From positions 1 through 47,238 of the forward strand of contig CALGDE010000161.1 in NCBI GenBank assembly GCA_937883785.1: a DNA stretch of 47,238 nt, in the 5' to 3' direction. Every line of letters starts with the position of its first letter. Position 1 is the first letter of the stretch. Positions 14,632 through 20,939 of the stretch are shown here, one piece after another. The notes below the pieces were generated by a model that saw only the letters and a list, made by a program, of their open reading frames with translations, was not told where the DNA came from and searched no databases. The position numbers and the translations under genes are program-made. The stretch comes from an uncultured cyanobacterium (GTDB taxonomy: Bacteria; Cyanobacteriota; Cyanobacteriia; CACIAM-69d).

Positions 14632-16536
14632 TTATTTGCCCGCTGCCGATAGATTAAGCACACATTGAATGTCGATAAGCTGTCCTGCATAGGTTGGCGT
14701 GGCTGGACCTACTTTGCATTGTTCTTGGTGTTTCAGCAGTAGCGGTGGGGAATTTTGCAGCGGGGCTGGAAGTTGCTCTGAGAGTTGTTGGGGGTGTTGA
14801 GATGGGGCGATCGCCTCAGAAGCGTTTAAAGCCACCAAAGTTTCAATAGCTTGATCGGTCGTTGGTTGATATTGCTTCAGCCATCCATTGTTGGCAAGAT
14901 AATCCACAGCAAAGGCATTGGGACCCAGAAGCCAGTGGGTAATGTTGTAGCGTTGAACGATTTGCAGTAGTTGATTAAGATCGGCAGTGTATTGGGCGGT
15001 GATCAGGTCCGATACGCGCCGTTGGATTTGGCTGTAGTAACCGATCTGGTAGGGGACGCTGTACTCTTTGCTGACCACAACGCTGCGGGCGGCAAATGTG
15101 GGAAGCTGGTCCGCTTCTTTGGCGATGGAACCAATACGGATGGTTTTGGGCTGCTGTTTTAGAAACTGATATAGCTCGGGGGCCGCACCGGTTTTGTAGC
15201 CAACGAGAGGAAAGTTGGAAACGGTGACCGGGTAGGTGATTAGGGCGAGGGTGAGGGCGATCGCCACCCCTTTAGCGACTTTTTGGGAAGTAACGCGCCC
15301 AATAAAATTGCGGCTTAAAAATAAACGCTGCAAGATTTGGCACCAGGCAACCCCACTGGATAGGGCAATGGCAATGCGCAGGCTGTGCCCGGTGTAGCGG
15401 CTGGGCAAATGCAAGGTAAATAAAGTGGCGTGGGCGAGGAAAAATAACACTGTGGAAGACAGCAGGAGTTTGATGACGACTCGGCTAGCTGCGGGGTTGG
15501 TGGTGGTGGAATGCTTTTGCAAGTCGCGCCTTTGCAAGCTGCGACCTATTGTCCAGAAAGGATAGAGTGCGCCGGGGATTAGGGTGACGGGGGTGAATAG
15601 GGATTTGGGAAAAAAGTTGGTACGTTTGCCCACAATCCAAAACTCCCAGAAGGGTTGATCGAATAGACTGGCCCGTCCTCCGGCGCGAAACTCCGCCATG
15701 GTGCGTCCCAGCTCCGCGCTGACGGTGGGACCGTATCCTCCGGTGGCCGCTAGGTACGGCAAAACCACCGCCAACGTGATGCCCCAACCAACGATTAACC
15801 ATTGCCAGCTTTGGCGATCGCCTCCCCCTAGAAATTTCAACACCCCCAGCCCCAGCATCCCCGCCGCAATCAGCAAATAGGGCGGTGAAATTAATCCCAG
15901 CAACGCCAAAGTGATTACCCCATAGGCAAGGGCGAGGCGGGGGCGATCGCGACGAATCAGCCAAGCATCCATAAATGCCAGCAGCAGTGGAATAGCAAAG
16001 GATCGGGGAGCAGCGGCGGCGACATCATCCTTCATCCATAGGGACTGCTGTAGCAAAAGGGATCCCAAGAATGCGGCAAGGGGGATTGGACACCAGCGGT
16101 AGGCGACTCGGTAGGCTAAAACGGCGATCGCTACCCCTAATCCCAGGGGCAAAATTTTGGCGAAGATTAGGGGCGGAATGCCCAGCAAAAACGCTCCGTA
16201 AAAAATGGCGCGGTAGCCTGCGGGGGCGACGGACGAAAAATAATCGGCAATTAGGTCGTCGGGAAATAATTCTGAATCTTGCCAGCGCTGCATCCAAAAT
16301 ACGTACTGACGAGCGTCATCCTGAACCACATAGTCGCCGTCGAAGGCTTCGCTCAGTCCCAGCCCGCCGAAAATTAGGGCAAAAATAATGGCAAGACATA
16401 AGCCCCAGAAATACGCTCGACGACGGGGGCTAAAGCAGTGAGAAATAAACGATTGCACCAAGGTTGCACGGGAAAATCTGAACGGGAAACGGCGGTGGGT
16501 GGGGCAATTAACGTCGATCAGTGGTGCAAGTGTCAC
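14632..16536 (-). CDS. Large polytopic membrane protein, GT-C-like
   Basis: This 634-residue protein has about ten or more hydrophobic segments between residues 40 and 440, then a soluble C-terminal region of about 190 residues. After the first membrane segment comes GDYVVQDDARQYVFWMQRW. An acidic pair at the first outer loop is the hallmark of GT-C glycosyltransferases that use lipid-linked sugar donors. A second loop has FPDDLIADYFSS, and DDVAAAAPRSFAIPL follows later. I infer a glycan or polyprenyl-sugar transferase role, but no family name is certain. The start is GTG at 16536; later starts are possible. The C-terminal part ends with Gln/Pro-rich sequence. It is divergent from the small membrane protein pair, with 63 bp between. 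Confidence 0.6.
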   Translation of the reverse strand: MTLAPLIDVNCPTHRRFPFRFSRATLVQSFISHCFSPRRRAYFWGLCLAIIFALIFGGLGLSEAFDGDYVVQDDARQYVFWMQRWQDSELFPDDLIADYFSSVAPAGYRAIFYGAFLLGIPPLIFAKILPLGLGVAIAVLAYRVAYRWCPIPLAAFLGSLLLQQSLWMKDDVAAAAPRSFAIPLLLAFMDAWLIRRDRPRLALAYGVITLALLGLISPPYLLIAAGMLGLGVLKFLGGGDRQSWQWLIVGWGITLAVVLPYLAATGGYGPTVSAELGRTMAEFRAGGRASLFDQPFWEFWIVGKRTNFFPKSLFTPVTLIPGALYPFWTIGRSLQRRDLQKHSTTTNPAASRVVIKLLLSSTVLFFLAHATLFTLHLPSRYTGHSLRIAIALSSGVAWCQILQRLFLSRNFIGRVTSQKVAKGVAIALTLALITYPVTVSNFPLVGYKTGAAPELYQFLKQQPKTIRIGSIAKEADQLPTFAARSVVVSKEYSVPYQIGYYSQIQRRVSDLITAQYTADLNQLLQIVQRYNITHWLLGPNAFAVDYLANNGWLKQYQPTTDQAIETLVALNASEAIAPSQHPQQLSEQLPAPLQNSPPLLLKHQEQCKVGPATPTYAGQLIDIQCVLNLSAAGK

Positions 16537-16599: not shown

Positions 16600-17082
16600 A
16601 TGTCCCAAAATACGCCGTCTCAAAATACGCCCCAACCTCCTCAGGAAAAACCCAAAAGTCCCCTAGAAAAAGCCACCGACCAGTTTGGTCACACCGTAGG
16701 GCTTATATATATCATTGCTGGTATCAGCGGCGTCGCGGGGGGGCTTGATCCGTTTTTCAATTTTCTGACGGAGGGGTTGGGACTAACCTGTTTGATTGGG
16801 GCGCCTGTTTACGGGGCGCTGGGATTCTGGGTGCAGAAAAAACGGTCTTCCTTCGCCTTGGGGCTGATTTTAGGGATTTATATTGTGCACTGTTCAGCCC
16901 TACTGATTGCCCGCGTTGATGCTTATATACCGGGCGATCGCCGCGTGCCTGTTTCCATTATTGTCTCTGGGCTGGCGGGAAGTTTCTTGCTGTTTGAAGG
17001 GTTTGGCAATATTAAGCGACTTAAAGTGGCAGAGAGAGCAGAAAGTTTAGATCCATCCTCAAAAGCTGATTCAAGTCCCTAG
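16600..17082 (+). CDS. Small tetraspan membrane protein, paralog 1
   Basis: The 160-residue protein has a polar N-terminus rich in Gln and Pro (SQNTPSQNTPQPPQEKPKSP), then about four hydrophobic segments, and a charged tail. Between segments two and three lies LGFWVQKKRSSFALGLILGIY. The same block (LGFWVQKKRSAIGLGLALGLY) occurs in the next gene, and both continue into a loop with VDA and end in FxGFGxIKxLK. The two are therefore tandem duplicates. I do not recognise a named family. They have the same strand as the PlsY-like fusion that follows, which makes a shared membrane-linked role possible but unproven. Confidence 0.7.
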   Translation: MSQNTPSQNTPQPPQEKPKSPLEKATDQFGHTVGLIYIIAGISGVAGGLDPFFNFLTEGLGLTCLIGAPVYGALGFWVQKKRSSFALGLILGIYIVHCSALLIARVDAYIPGDRRVPVSIIVSGLAGSFLLFEGFGNIKRLKVAERAESLDPSSKADSSP

Positions 17083-17273: not shown

Positions 17274-17744
17274 ATGGGATGGTTCGGCAAAAAAAAGGAT
17301 AAGGACGGCAATGAGATTCAACTCAGTCCCCGTGAATTGGCCGAAAAGCAGTTTAAAAATGCCTTGGGCGCAATTTACGCCGTCGCTATTCTGAACGCTG
17401 TCATTGGAGCAGCCCTTGTGATCTTTCAAGTGGAACTGCCAGGGTTTGATAACTTTGGCGTGCTCGCTGTAATTGAAGGGGCAATCTTTGGCGTTTTAGG
17501 GTTCTGGGTACAGAAAAAGCGCTCTGCGATAGGTTTGGGGCTGGCGTTAGGTCTTTATATTTTTGGCAGCCTGAGTTTTATCGTGGCTAGCGTCGACGCA
17601 GGGCGGCCCCCAACCTCTGGCATCGCTATTCGTGTGGCGCTTATTTATTTTATGTTTCAGGGATTTGGCGCCATTAAGCAACTGAAATCAGCCAAAGTTG
17701 AGGATGAGTCGGCGGTGGACTCTCCAGAGGCGGACAATCCTTAG
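17274..17744 (+). CDS. Small tetraspan membrane protein, paralog 2
   Basis: The 156-residue protein is the duplicate of the gene upstream. It differs in its N-terminus, a charged Lys-rich sequence (MGWFGKKKDKDGNEIQ) followed by SPRELAEKQFKNALGAIYA. The four-helix core shares the LGFWVQKKRS block, the VDAGRPP loop and the FQGFGAIKQLK end with paralog 1. A Shine-Dalgarno sequence, AAGGAGG, lies about 10 nt before the ATG at 17274, which fixes the start. The tail is acidic. A 16-bp tandem repeat separates it from the next gene, 99 bp on. Confidence 0.72.
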   Translation: MGWFGKKKDKDGNEIQLSPRELAEKQFKNALGAIYAVAILNAVIGAALVIFQVELPGFDNFGVLAVIEGAIFGVLGFWVQKKRSAIGLGLALGLYIFGSLSFIVASVDAGRPPTSGIAIRVALIYFMFQGFGAIKQLKSAKVEDESAVDSPEADNP

Positions 17745-17843: not shown

Positions 17844-20800
17844 ATGCCTTTAACCCTAGATCAAACCTGGGGGGTTTTGCTGTTGCTGACCCTATGTCCC
17901 ACTTTGGGTGCGCTGCCGTTGGTGGGGTGGATTGTGCAGGGGCTGACGGGAATTAATTTGCGACAGGTGGGCACCGGCAACGTCAGTGTTTCGGCGGCGT
18001 TTTACCACGGTGGTAAGTGGGTGGGTGGACTGTCCGCATTGGCGGAGGCTTTGAAAGGGGTAGCAGTGGTGCTGTTAACGCGGCAGTTTTTTCCGGCGGG
18101 ATCCCCCTGGGAGTTGCTTAGCCTGGCGGCGCTGGTGATGGGGCGTTATTGGGTGGGAGGCGGCGCAGGCACCACCAATGCCATGTGGGGGGCGATGGCT
18201 TACGATCCTATTAGTTTTGCCCTGACCTGGTTTCTAAGTTTTATGGGGTGGTTGATTGTTCGCGATCGCCAGCAGGGAAAATATCTAATTTTGGTTATTT
18301 ATCCCCTAACGGTGGTGGCGCTGCCCCAGGGATCTACGACTCACTTTGGTATGGCAGTGATGCTGTGTGGGCTGTTGGGGTTTATTTATCAAAAAGTGCC
18401 CGACGATTTGGAATTGTCAGAAGCGGGTGCCAAAAAGGAGTCGCGGGGCATGTTTCGATTTTTTAGGGGCGATCGCGCCGTCAAAAGCTTGGACGATGAT
18501 TTGCAGGAGTCCATGGTGGGTGGCAAGGCCGCCACTTTATCCCAGCTACGGCGGCGGGGTTATCCGGTACCGCCAGGCTGGGTGCTTCATCCGGGGGATG
18601 ATCCCATGTTGCTGGCGGCTTACTGGTCTGGACGCGACGACGAAGGACCTAACGACGGGTCCGTGGGGTGCATGATTAAAAGCGCTATTGGTCCAGATAT
18701 TAAGCAGGACTTTGACCCGCCATTGATTGCCCGCTCGTCCGCCGTTGGGGAAGATGGCGATCGCGCTTCGGCGGCGGGAATGTACGAGTCCATCGGCAAT
18801 ATTCGCAGCTCTGAACAGTTGGTCAATGCGATCGCCCAGGTATTCGACTCTTACGATGCCCCAGCGGCTCGGCAATATCGCCAGGATTTAACCCTTGAGG
18901 ACGCCCCCATGGCGGTGCTGGTGCAGCCCCAAATTGAGGGCGTGTTTTCCGGCGTAGCTTTTAGTCGAGATCCCGTGCACCGATGTGGCGATGGGGTCGT
19001 GGTGGAGGCGCTTCCCGGCGATGCGTCGAAAGTAGTGTCCGGACGTATTACCCCCGAGGCCTATCGGGTACAGGTGAGTGACGACAGCTTGAGCACCTGG
19101 CGACAAAGCTGGGGGTTGACCACAGAGCAGGGGAACAATGGAAACGAGAAAACAGGTAAGAGCTCCTCGCCCACATTTCAACTTAATTTAAATCGCTCCA
19201 ACACCATTACCACGCCCATTGAAACGGTGACGGGGGCTGGCAATGTGCCCCTGTGGTTGGTGCAGGAGGTGGCGTGTTTGGCGCGGGATATTGAGCAGCG
19301 CTTCGGGGGCATTCCCCAGGATATGGAGTGGACTTTCGATGGGAGCCGCCTGTGGGTCTTGCAAGCGCGATCTGTCACCACCTTGCTGCCCATCTGGACC
19401 CGAAAAATCGCGGCGGAGGTGATTCCCGGTACGATCCGCCCTCTGACCTGGTCCATCAACCGTCCTCTCACCTGCGGCGTATGGGGTGACTTATTCCAGG
19501 TGGTTATAGGCGATACGCCGGATATCGATTACTTGGAAACGGCAACTCTCCACCACAGTCGCGCCTATTTCAACGTCACTCTCCTGGGAGAACTCTTTGG
19601 ACGGGCAGGGTTGCCGCCCGATAGTTTGACTTTTCTCACCCAAGGGGGAAAGCCAGGAAAGGTGCCCGTTTTGGCGATGGTTCGTGCGGTTCCGGGGCTG
19701 TTGCGACTTATCGGTCGGGAACGGGCATTAATCAAAAACTTTTTAAATGACGATCGCCATTATTTCAGCCCCGCCCTGTCCGATTTGCGATCGCACCCGG
19801 TGCTAAATCAGGATCCTGCTAATCCGAAACTAACGGTGCCGCAGATTATTAAGCGCATCAAAACCATCTTAGAACTGTTAGAAAAAGCCACTTACTACAG
19901 TATTTTGGCTCCCCTAAGCGTTGCTGTGCGCCAAAAAATCAGCCGCGTTTCGTCTGTCCAATTAGACACTAGCGATACCCCAGAGATTGCGTCAGCAAAA
20001 TATTTAGAAACCCTGGGGATGCGTATTAATCAACAATTACAAGGTGACGCAAGCGAAAGTTTAGACCATATAGATTCCATTGAGAAACTATTCGACGTTT
20101 TAGGGGAAACGCCAACGGGAAAGGACCTGATAAAAGACTTTGATCAATTTCTAACGCGCTATGGGTATCTCAGCGATGTGGGCACTGATATCGCTGTTCC
20201 TACTTGGGTTGAGGATCCCAGCGCACCCCAAAGTGCCCTGTTAAACTTTGCGCGAAACCCTGTTTCTAAAGCCTCTGAATCCTCCAAAAAAGCCCCTAAA
20301 TCTCTACAAAACCGGGTGCAGTTACGGGGGCGGGTTACGGTGGTTTACAGTCAGCTTTTGGCGGAATTACGGTGGCATTTTGTGGCGATCGCCCGACAGT
20401 GGCATCATCAAAATTTCATTAACAATCCCGACGATATTTTTATGCTGACCTGGGATGAAGTACAGGCAATTTCTAACAATTCTCCCCAGCAGCCTAAGGA
20501 TTTGAAGCAGCATATTAGCGATCGCCACGGCGCCTTTAATCAAGATTGCCAACATTCCGCCGCACCGCTAGTTTATGGCAATACTGCGCCGCCTTATCTT
20601 GCTGAGCAGCCCGTTGATGGGAGCCAATTAACGGGGATTGGCAGCAGCGCCGGCACCGTTCAGGGAGAGGTGCTGATTTTGGATAAATTGCGAGGTACCG
20701 TGACCATTAATCGGGACACGATTTTAGTGGTGCCCTACACCGATTCGGCGTGGGCTCCGCTGTTAGCTCAGGCGGGGGGGCTAGTGTGTGAGGTGGGGGG

Positions 20801-20939
20801 ACAGCTTTCCCATGGGGCGATCGTGGCGCGGGAGTATGGCATTCCGTCGGTGATGAATGTTAGCGATGCGACCCGACGGCTGCGTACGGGACAGCGGGTT
20901 AAGATCGATGGCGATCGCGGCACTGTCGAACCGTTGTAA
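17844..20939 (+). CDS. PlsY-like membrane domain fused to PEP-synthase-like phosphotransferase
   Basis: The 1031-residue protein has two parts. Residues 1-185 are a polytopic domain like the glycerol-3-phosphate acyltransferase PlsY: VGTGNVSVSAAFYHGGKW (42-59) stands at motif 1 (normally SGNxGxTNxxR) and VGGGAGTTNAMWG (104-116) at motif 2 (normally GGKGVAT). Both are altered, including loss of the motif 2 Lys. Residues 224-520 resemble the PEP synthase/PPDK ATP-binding domain: VGGKAATLSQLRRRGYPVPPG, ARSSAVGEDGDRASAAGMYES, FSGVAFSRDP, DMEWTFDG and LWVLQARSV. A poorly conserved middle follows. The C-terminus is a swivelling domain with the phospho-acceptor H990 in GGQLSHGAIVAREYGIPSV. The PEP/pyruvate barrel is absent, as in rifampin phosphotransferase. 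An ATP-dependent phosphoryl transfer to a membrane-held acceptor is my inference. Confidence 0.8.
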   Translation: MPLTLDQTWGVLLLLTLCPTLGALPLVGWIVQGLTGINLRQVGTGNVSVSAAFYHGGKWVGGLSALAEALKGVAVVLLTRQFFPAGSPWELLSLAALVMGRYWVGGGAGTTNAMWGAMAYDPISFALTWFLSFMGWLIVRDRQQGKYLILVIYPLTVVALPQGSTTHFGMAVMLCGLLGFIYQKVPDDLELSEAGAKKESRGMFRFFRGDRAVKSLDDDLQESMVGGKAATLSQLRRRGYPVPPGWVLHPGDDPMLLAAYWSGRDDEGPNDGSVGCMIKSAIGPDIKQDFDPPLIARSSAVGEDGDRASAAGMYESIGNIRSSEQLVNAIAQVFDSYDAPAARQYRQDLTLEDAPMAVLVQPQIEGVFSGVAFSRDPVHRCGDGVVVEALPGDASKVVSGRITPEAYRVQVSDDSLSTWRQSWGLTTEQGNNGNEKTGKSSSPTFQLNLNRSNTITTPIETVTGAGNVPLWLVQEVACLARDIEQRFGGIPQDMEWTFDGSRLWVLQARSVTTLLPIWTRKIAAEVIPGTIRPLTWSINRPLTCGVWGDLFQVVIGDTPDIDYLETATLHHSRAYFNVTLLGELFGRAGLPPDSLTFLTQGGKPGKVPVLAMVRAVPGLLRLIGRERALIKNFLNDDRHYFSPALSDLRSHPVLNQDPANPKLTVPQIIKRIKTILELLEKATYYSILAPLSVAVRQKISRVSSVQLDTSDTPEIASAKYLETLGMRINQQLQGDASESLDHIDSIEKLFDVLGETPTGKDLIKDFDQFLTRYGYLSDVGTDIAVPTWVEDPSAPQSALLNFARNPVSKASESSKKAPKSLQNRVQLRGRVTVVYSQLLAELRWHFVAIARQWHHQNFINNPDDIFMLTWDEVQAISNNSPQQPKDLKQHISDRHGAFNQDCQHSAAPLVYGNTAPPYLAEQPVDGSQLTGIGSSAGTVQGEVLILDKLRGTVTINRDTILVVPYTDSAWAPLLAQAGGLVCEVGGQLSHGAIVAREYGIPSVMNVSDATRRLRTGQRVKIDGDRGTVEPL

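Follow-up and report, generated by a model that had tools for sequence, protein, structure and literature searches.

Arg666 and Glu667 of rifampin phosphotransferase (RPH) are required for transfer to rifampin. Changes to Lys22, Arg117 or Thr136 of RPH abolish rifampin resistance (PMC4844700), and the catalytic histidine is likewise essential, both HpeH H581Q and a B. cereus RPH with the histidine replaced being inactive (PMC12167813). In the acyltransferase PlsY, numbered throughout according to the A. aeolicus enzyme (aaPlsY), single alanine substitutions of R45, K104, N180 or H177 leave approximately 1 to 7% of activity, with values of ~7% for K104A and ~17% for H92A (PMC5700162). Here we describe a cyanobacterial gene that joins a PlsY-like membrane domain to a kinase half of RPH type.

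The gene occupies positions 17844..20939 (+) of the window (i.e. the whole 47,238-nucleotide stretch of DNA that was analysed) and encodes 1031 amino acids in a single uninterrupted open frame; the frame, the coordinates, both PlsY motif strings and the phosphohistidine residue H990 are as given in the original prediction. An N-terminal PlsY-like membrane domain (residues 8-209, 17865..18470 (+)), recognised by Pfam PF02660 (G3P_acyltransf, residues 18-175, 52.5 bits against a cut-off of 24.1), is followed by an ATP-grasp domain (residues 210-513, 18471..19382 (+); PF01326, PPDK_N, residues 288-513, 137.7 bits), an RPH-type acceptor-binding domain (residues 514-908, 19383..20567 (+)) and a swivelling phosphohistidine domain (residues 926-1031, 20619..20936 (+); PF00391, PEP-utilizers, residues 956-1026, 80 bits, and structure comparison), with the PF01326 and PF00391 scores also above their curated cut-offs. 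No PEP/pyruvate barrel domain was found among the Pfam matches of the 1031-residue protein. An AlphaFold model of the whole protein, built from a 65-sequence alignment, has a mean pLDDT of 81 and a pTM of 0.62, values at which the single domains are reliable and their relative placement is not to be trusted; AlphaFold models were compared with the PDB using Foldseek and VIA-align.

Residues 211-1031 match RPH with a best Z of 25.7 over 598 residues, the accompanying rmsd of 12.8 Å probably reflecting domain movement, and the ATP-grasp domain superposes on the ATP-binding domain of RPH (5hv6) with Z 20.3 and rmsd 2.5. The middle domain, when modelled alone (residues 514-908; pLDDT 86.8, pTM 0.89), matches the rifampin-binding domain of RPH (5hv3) with Z 20.2 and rmsd 3.5 over 317 aligned residues; the best unrelated PDB chain reached Z 6.4, and no fold ranked above RPH. 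Long helical bundles gave weak matches (Z 4-6.4) that we judged to be common arrangements. The protein therefore has no PEP/pyruvate barrel, the rifampin-binding domain of RPH being the one counterpart of its middle domain, and in these models the kinase half has the complete RPH-type layout, in agreement with the barrel-less architecture first proposed and extending to the acceptor domain. By sequence, the family profile aligns with RPH (E about 1e-80) from the C-terminal part of the ATP-grasp domain through the acceptor and swivel domains.

The ATP-grasp motifs and the histidine loop, which had appeared intact in the single sequence, are so across the family. The residues mapped to the ATP-grasp domain are K228, R297, S316, Q361, E388, E495, Q507 and R509, and all are identical in 65/65 homologs, together with Y314, D376 and H990, save position 316, which is Ser or Thr in every case; K228, R297 and Ser/Thr316 are the equivalents of RPH Lys22, Arg117 and Thr136. 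H990 (codon 20811..20813 (+), in GGxLSHGAIVAREY) falls in the region aligned with the RPH swivel domain, which carries His825, and the invariant E525 aligns with RPH Gln337, which in RPH touches the transferred phosphate. RPH Arg666 and Glu667 align with residues 833 and 834, which vary, although a slip of one residue in the local alignment is possible; within this limitation, the second half-reaction would have to rely on different residues and the acceptor side would differ from that of RPH. R824, Y835 and R843, close by, do not vary.

The membrane domain proved PlsY-like, as had been proposed, residues 8-209 matching PlsY (5xj7) with Z 18.9 and rmsd 3.0 over 180 aligned residues. Its motif 1 (residues 43-57, GTGNVSVSAAFYHGG, 17970..18014 (+)) and motif 2 (residues 100-112, GRYWVGGGAGTTN, 18141..18179 (+)) are both altered, and the motif 2 lysine is lost, as originally predicted; this requires refinement only for motif 1, which retains N46 and a hydroxyl at positions 44 and 50. 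Relative to PlsY, the motif 1 correspondences are S35 to T44, N37 to N46, T41 to S50 and R45 to Y54. Elsewhere, H92 is replaced by R101 in 65/65 fusions, K104 by G109 (A108 in another alignment; Gly or Ala in 65/65), S142 by K/R146 and H177 by Y182 (Tyr in 58/65), and N180 has no clear counterpart. The residues that clamp the phosphate of glycerol-3-phosphate (G3P), Ser35, Arg45, Lys104 and Asn180, are therefore not kept in the fusions (Thr44 and Tyr54, like Gly109/Ala108, in 65/65), whereas the clamp is intact in 30/30 canonical enzymes (29 cyanobacterial PlsY plus aaPlsY), which keep all compared positions except N37 (Ser in 28/30). Given the loss of the R45, K104, N180 and H177 positions, and the activities of the corresponding alanine mutants, the G3P site is very probably gone. 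The bundle nevertheless retains the fold of PlsY and, in modified form, parts of its acyl-phosphate pocket. In a tree with canonical PlsY the fused domains form one clade (support 100/100) on a long stem, within which T44, N46, Y54, H55, E68, K71, R80, R101, T111 and N112 are without variation; as judged from the alignment, this new invariant set is the pattern of changed function and not of decay.

The same domain order was found in other cyanobacteria, as anticipated. Among 59 sampled genomes of cyanobacteria related to that of the window, 39 contain the fusion, counted where both ends, or most of the length, were strongly matched (some cut by contig ends), and a stricter scan gave strong matches in 105/386 genomes of the phylum. 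The best 80 named loci all come from cyanobacteria (Nostoc, Fischerella, Microcystis, Leptolyngbya, Oscillatoria, Crocosphaera and others), each consisting of one open frame that matches the query at E below 1e-100 and, in 78/80, exceeds 900 amino acids; with an open frame in a same-genus genome that spans residues 52-1031 at 87% identity, this shows that the fusion is not the assembly error that the original prediction had named as refuting it. To its question whether the two parts also occur as adjacent separate genes the answer was negative, none being found in the sampled cyanobacterial genomes. Canonical PlsY is present besides in 59/59 genomes, and the divergent form was seen only inside the fused gene, leaving aside breaks in frame or contig and a single short paralog; a DNA pattern for motif 2 matched solely the fused gene (19/19 cases). 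That paralog (L113:2829-4604 (-), genome G017) has 591 amino acids, comprising PlsY-like, ATP-grasp and swivel domains without the acceptor domain, with PlsY motif 1 and the Gln507 position altered and the His loop kept, and is possibly a regulatory or decaying copy. In genome G036 (L114:318-3310) the fused gene lies in two frames, with the break near the PDD motif that ends the PlsY-like part, reflecting either a frameshift or a sequencing error.

Estimates of dN/dS were 0.14 for the PlsY-like part, 0.07 for the ATP-grasp and acceptor domains, 0.04 for the swivel domain and 0.08 overall, by which measure the fused gene is under purifying selection. Mean p-distances within the family are 0.39 for the PlsY-like and 0.40 for the ATP-grasp part, and the pairwise distances of the PlsY-like and kinase parts correlate (r 0.70-0.80), as expected had the two travelled together. 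Relatives of the kinase half (residues 212-1031) that stand alone, lacking a PlsY part, occur in other phyla and are common among haloarchaea, actinobacteria and others. Plasmid records contained no single place covering at least 80% of the query and only stand-alone kinase relatives, some in prodigiosin-type clusters and others in unrelated contexts without a shared substrate clue; none of the viral contigs searched encodes a relative, and PADLOC gave no match.

The genes around the fusion in the window are not common to other homologs, and across loci the neighbours are not conserved outside Nostocales and give no substrate clue. Two small membrane proteins upstream (16600-17082 and 17274-17744 (+)), which the original prediction had put forward as possible partners, match no family above cut-off. 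They are 40% identical to each other, arranged as tandem paralogs, and neither has a copy beside any other homolog, so they were rejected as partners. The window also contains a 634-residue protein (14632-16536 (-)) that has many hydrophobic segments and likewise matches no family above cut-off. A GDSL/SGNH hydrolase with an N-terminal hydrophobic segment stands divergently upstream of the fused gene in ~25 Nostocales loci (e.g. L065:6189-7152 (-)) and, in one Leptolyngbyaceae locus, directly downstream in an overlapping, operon-like arrangement (L089:3170-4102 (+)), so that it adjoins the fusion in two lineages in differing arrangements. In many Nostocales the start of a single-domain cupin gene overlaps the stop codon of the fused gene (e.g. 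L057:7406-7750 (+)). Co-occurrence across the 59 genomes, from lists compiled by hand in which single entries could be off, gave p = 3e-5 for the hydrolase and p = 0.02 for the cupin; these became 0.31 once small genomes were removed and 0.65 after the genome-size cut, respectively, i.e. neither survives a simple control for genome size, and we treat the hydrolase link as a hint only and set the cupin aside.

We propose that the fusion is a membrane-integral RPH-type dikinase whose PlsY-like bundle most likely binds and presents a membrane amphiphile, a reading to which we would give an even chance. By analogy with RPH, HpeHI and PpsAB, we infer that ATP would be bound in the ATP-grasp domain and its beta-phosphate passed to His990, yielding AMP and Pi, after which the swivel domain would carry the phosphate from His990 to an acceptor in the helical middle domain. 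The most likely overall reaction would be ATP + membrane amphiphile -> phospho-amphiphile + AMP + Pi, in which the amphiphile (a lipid-like acceptor or product, e.g. acyl or prenyl) would be presented by the N-terminal bundle and would pass from the membrane to the kinase by way of that domain or with its aid. The ATP-binding part follows the last transmembrane helix and would lie in the cytosol, and the acceptor would be lipid in nature. What the analysis shows directly is the architecture, the predicted folds, the conserved residues and the wide distribution; taken as a whole the proposal is evenly poised, its phosphotransfer chemistry being well supported and its acceptor not.

Points against it are the gene neighbours, which give no substrate clue, the variable positions aligned with Arg666/Glu667 of RPH, and the possibility that the PlsY-like part does no more than anchor the protein. 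In the last case the domain would be only a membrane anchor or sensor and the kinase would act on a soluble small molecule (e.g. a sugar, phenol or cofactor), as might be suggested by the many stand-alone relatives of the kinase half and by the small aromatic substrates of HpeHI, RPH and PpsAB (PMC12167813). However, were the domain a pure anchor, more drift would be expected than the matched p-distances of the two parts indicate, and the PlsY-like motif positions are invariant in 65/65 homologs; we consider this reading unlikely. The new invariant residues around the PlsY-like site, being more than an anchor needs, are instead compatible with a bifunctional enzyme, in which the RPH-like module would convert a free fatty acid to acyl-phosphate, or produce a phosphorylated acceptor, for use by the PlsY-like domain in acylating an acceptor other than G3P. 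This would fit the loss of the G3P half of the site with partial retention of the acyl-phosphate half (T41 to S50, the motif 2 loop glycines and a cation at H92 as R101), but substitutions of H92 and K104 damage PlsY (K104A ~7%, H92A ~17%; PMC5700162), PlsX supplies the acyl-phosphate in bacteria with PlsY, which have no obvious need of a second route, and the neighbours suggest no acceptor, so that we rate it a doubtful alternative. Of a similarly low probability is a two-site membrane enzyme, in which a phosphorylated lipid intermediate formed by the RPH-type dikinase would be passed on to the repurposed PlsY site; were this true, many cyanobacteria would possess a lipid-modifying pathway not yet described.

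That the protein is a true G3P acyltransferase, i.e. a second PlsY to which a regulatory phosphorelay module is joined, would accord with the PlsY fold and the above-threshold PF02660 match. Against this stand the replacement of Arg45 by Tyr and of Lys104 by Gly/Ala in every fusion, that of His177 by Tyr in most and the absent counterpart of Asn180, at positions which the 29 cyanobacterial canonical enzymes keep and where alanine at any one of the four costs PlsY more than 90% of its activity (PMC5700162). The G3P reaction is, moreover, already covered by the canonical PlsY of all sampled genomes; the fusion is very probably not a G3P acyltransferase, and we hold a second PlsY to be highly improbable. 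An annotation artefact (a frameshift, chimeric contig or decayed gene) could draw on the two-frame relative in G036, but is scarcely credible beside the single frames of the best 80 named loci, the strong matches across the phylum and the low overall dN/dS.

A search of the openly accessible literature returned no description of such a PlsY fusion in cyanobacteria. What appears new is the combination of domains, the disappearance of the substrate site of PlsY and the lack of a described function; the domains themselves may already stand in public annotation. If our preferred reading, a membrane-integral dikinase, is correct, this would be to our knowledge the first RPH-type dikinase built into a membrane. 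The protein is a large and strongly conserved enzyme, found in about two thirds of the sampled related cyanobacteria and without a described function in the literature searched, and a clear case of the PlsY fold reused without its substrate site, for which an automated name, be it 'glycerol-3-phosphate acyltransferase' or 'PEP synthase', would be misleading. Since its parts suggest both a chemistry (ATP to AMP and Pi, via phosphohistidine, onto an acceptor) and a place (the membrane), the acceptor can be sought directly.

Set beside the described systems, the fusion shares with PlsY (PF02660; PDB 5XJ5-5XJ9) its fold, N37 and the hydroxyls at positions 35 and 41, but has lost clamp residues R45, K104 and N180 as well as H177, has a deletion of about five residues in the motif 2 loop and carries, in place of motif 3, PDDLxL and a linker to the kinase. 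It has the ATP-grasp and swivel domains of PEP synthase and PPDK, but lacks their PEP/pyruvate barrel, has its His domain at the C-terminus and scores 143 bits against TIGR01418 (PEP synthase; cut-off 739.75). The prodigiosin ligases PigC and RedH have the same barrel-less architecture of ATP-grasp and PEP-utilizers domains, in contrast without a PlsY domain and in a different genomic context, and the scores against their NCBIfam equivalogs (190.5 against 1300 and 191.7 against 1350 bits, respectively) fall far below the cut-offs. With RPH (Listeria, PDB 5FBS/5HV1) it shares the order of ATP-grasp, helical acceptor and C-terminal swivelling His domains and the equivalents of Lys22, Arg117, Thr136 (as Ser/Thr) and His825; unlike RPH, it adds an N-terminal membrane domain and does not conserve Arg666/Glu667 at the aligned positions (where the alignment may slip by one residue), and it scores 186.5 bits against RIF_Ptrans_rph of NCBIfam (cut-off 999). 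The phenolic dikinases HpeHI, PpsAB and CreHI are likewise barrel-less and the same two-site swivelling mechanism would be expected of the fusion, but these consist of two separate polypeptides without a PlsY-like domain, whereas the fusion is one membrane protein.
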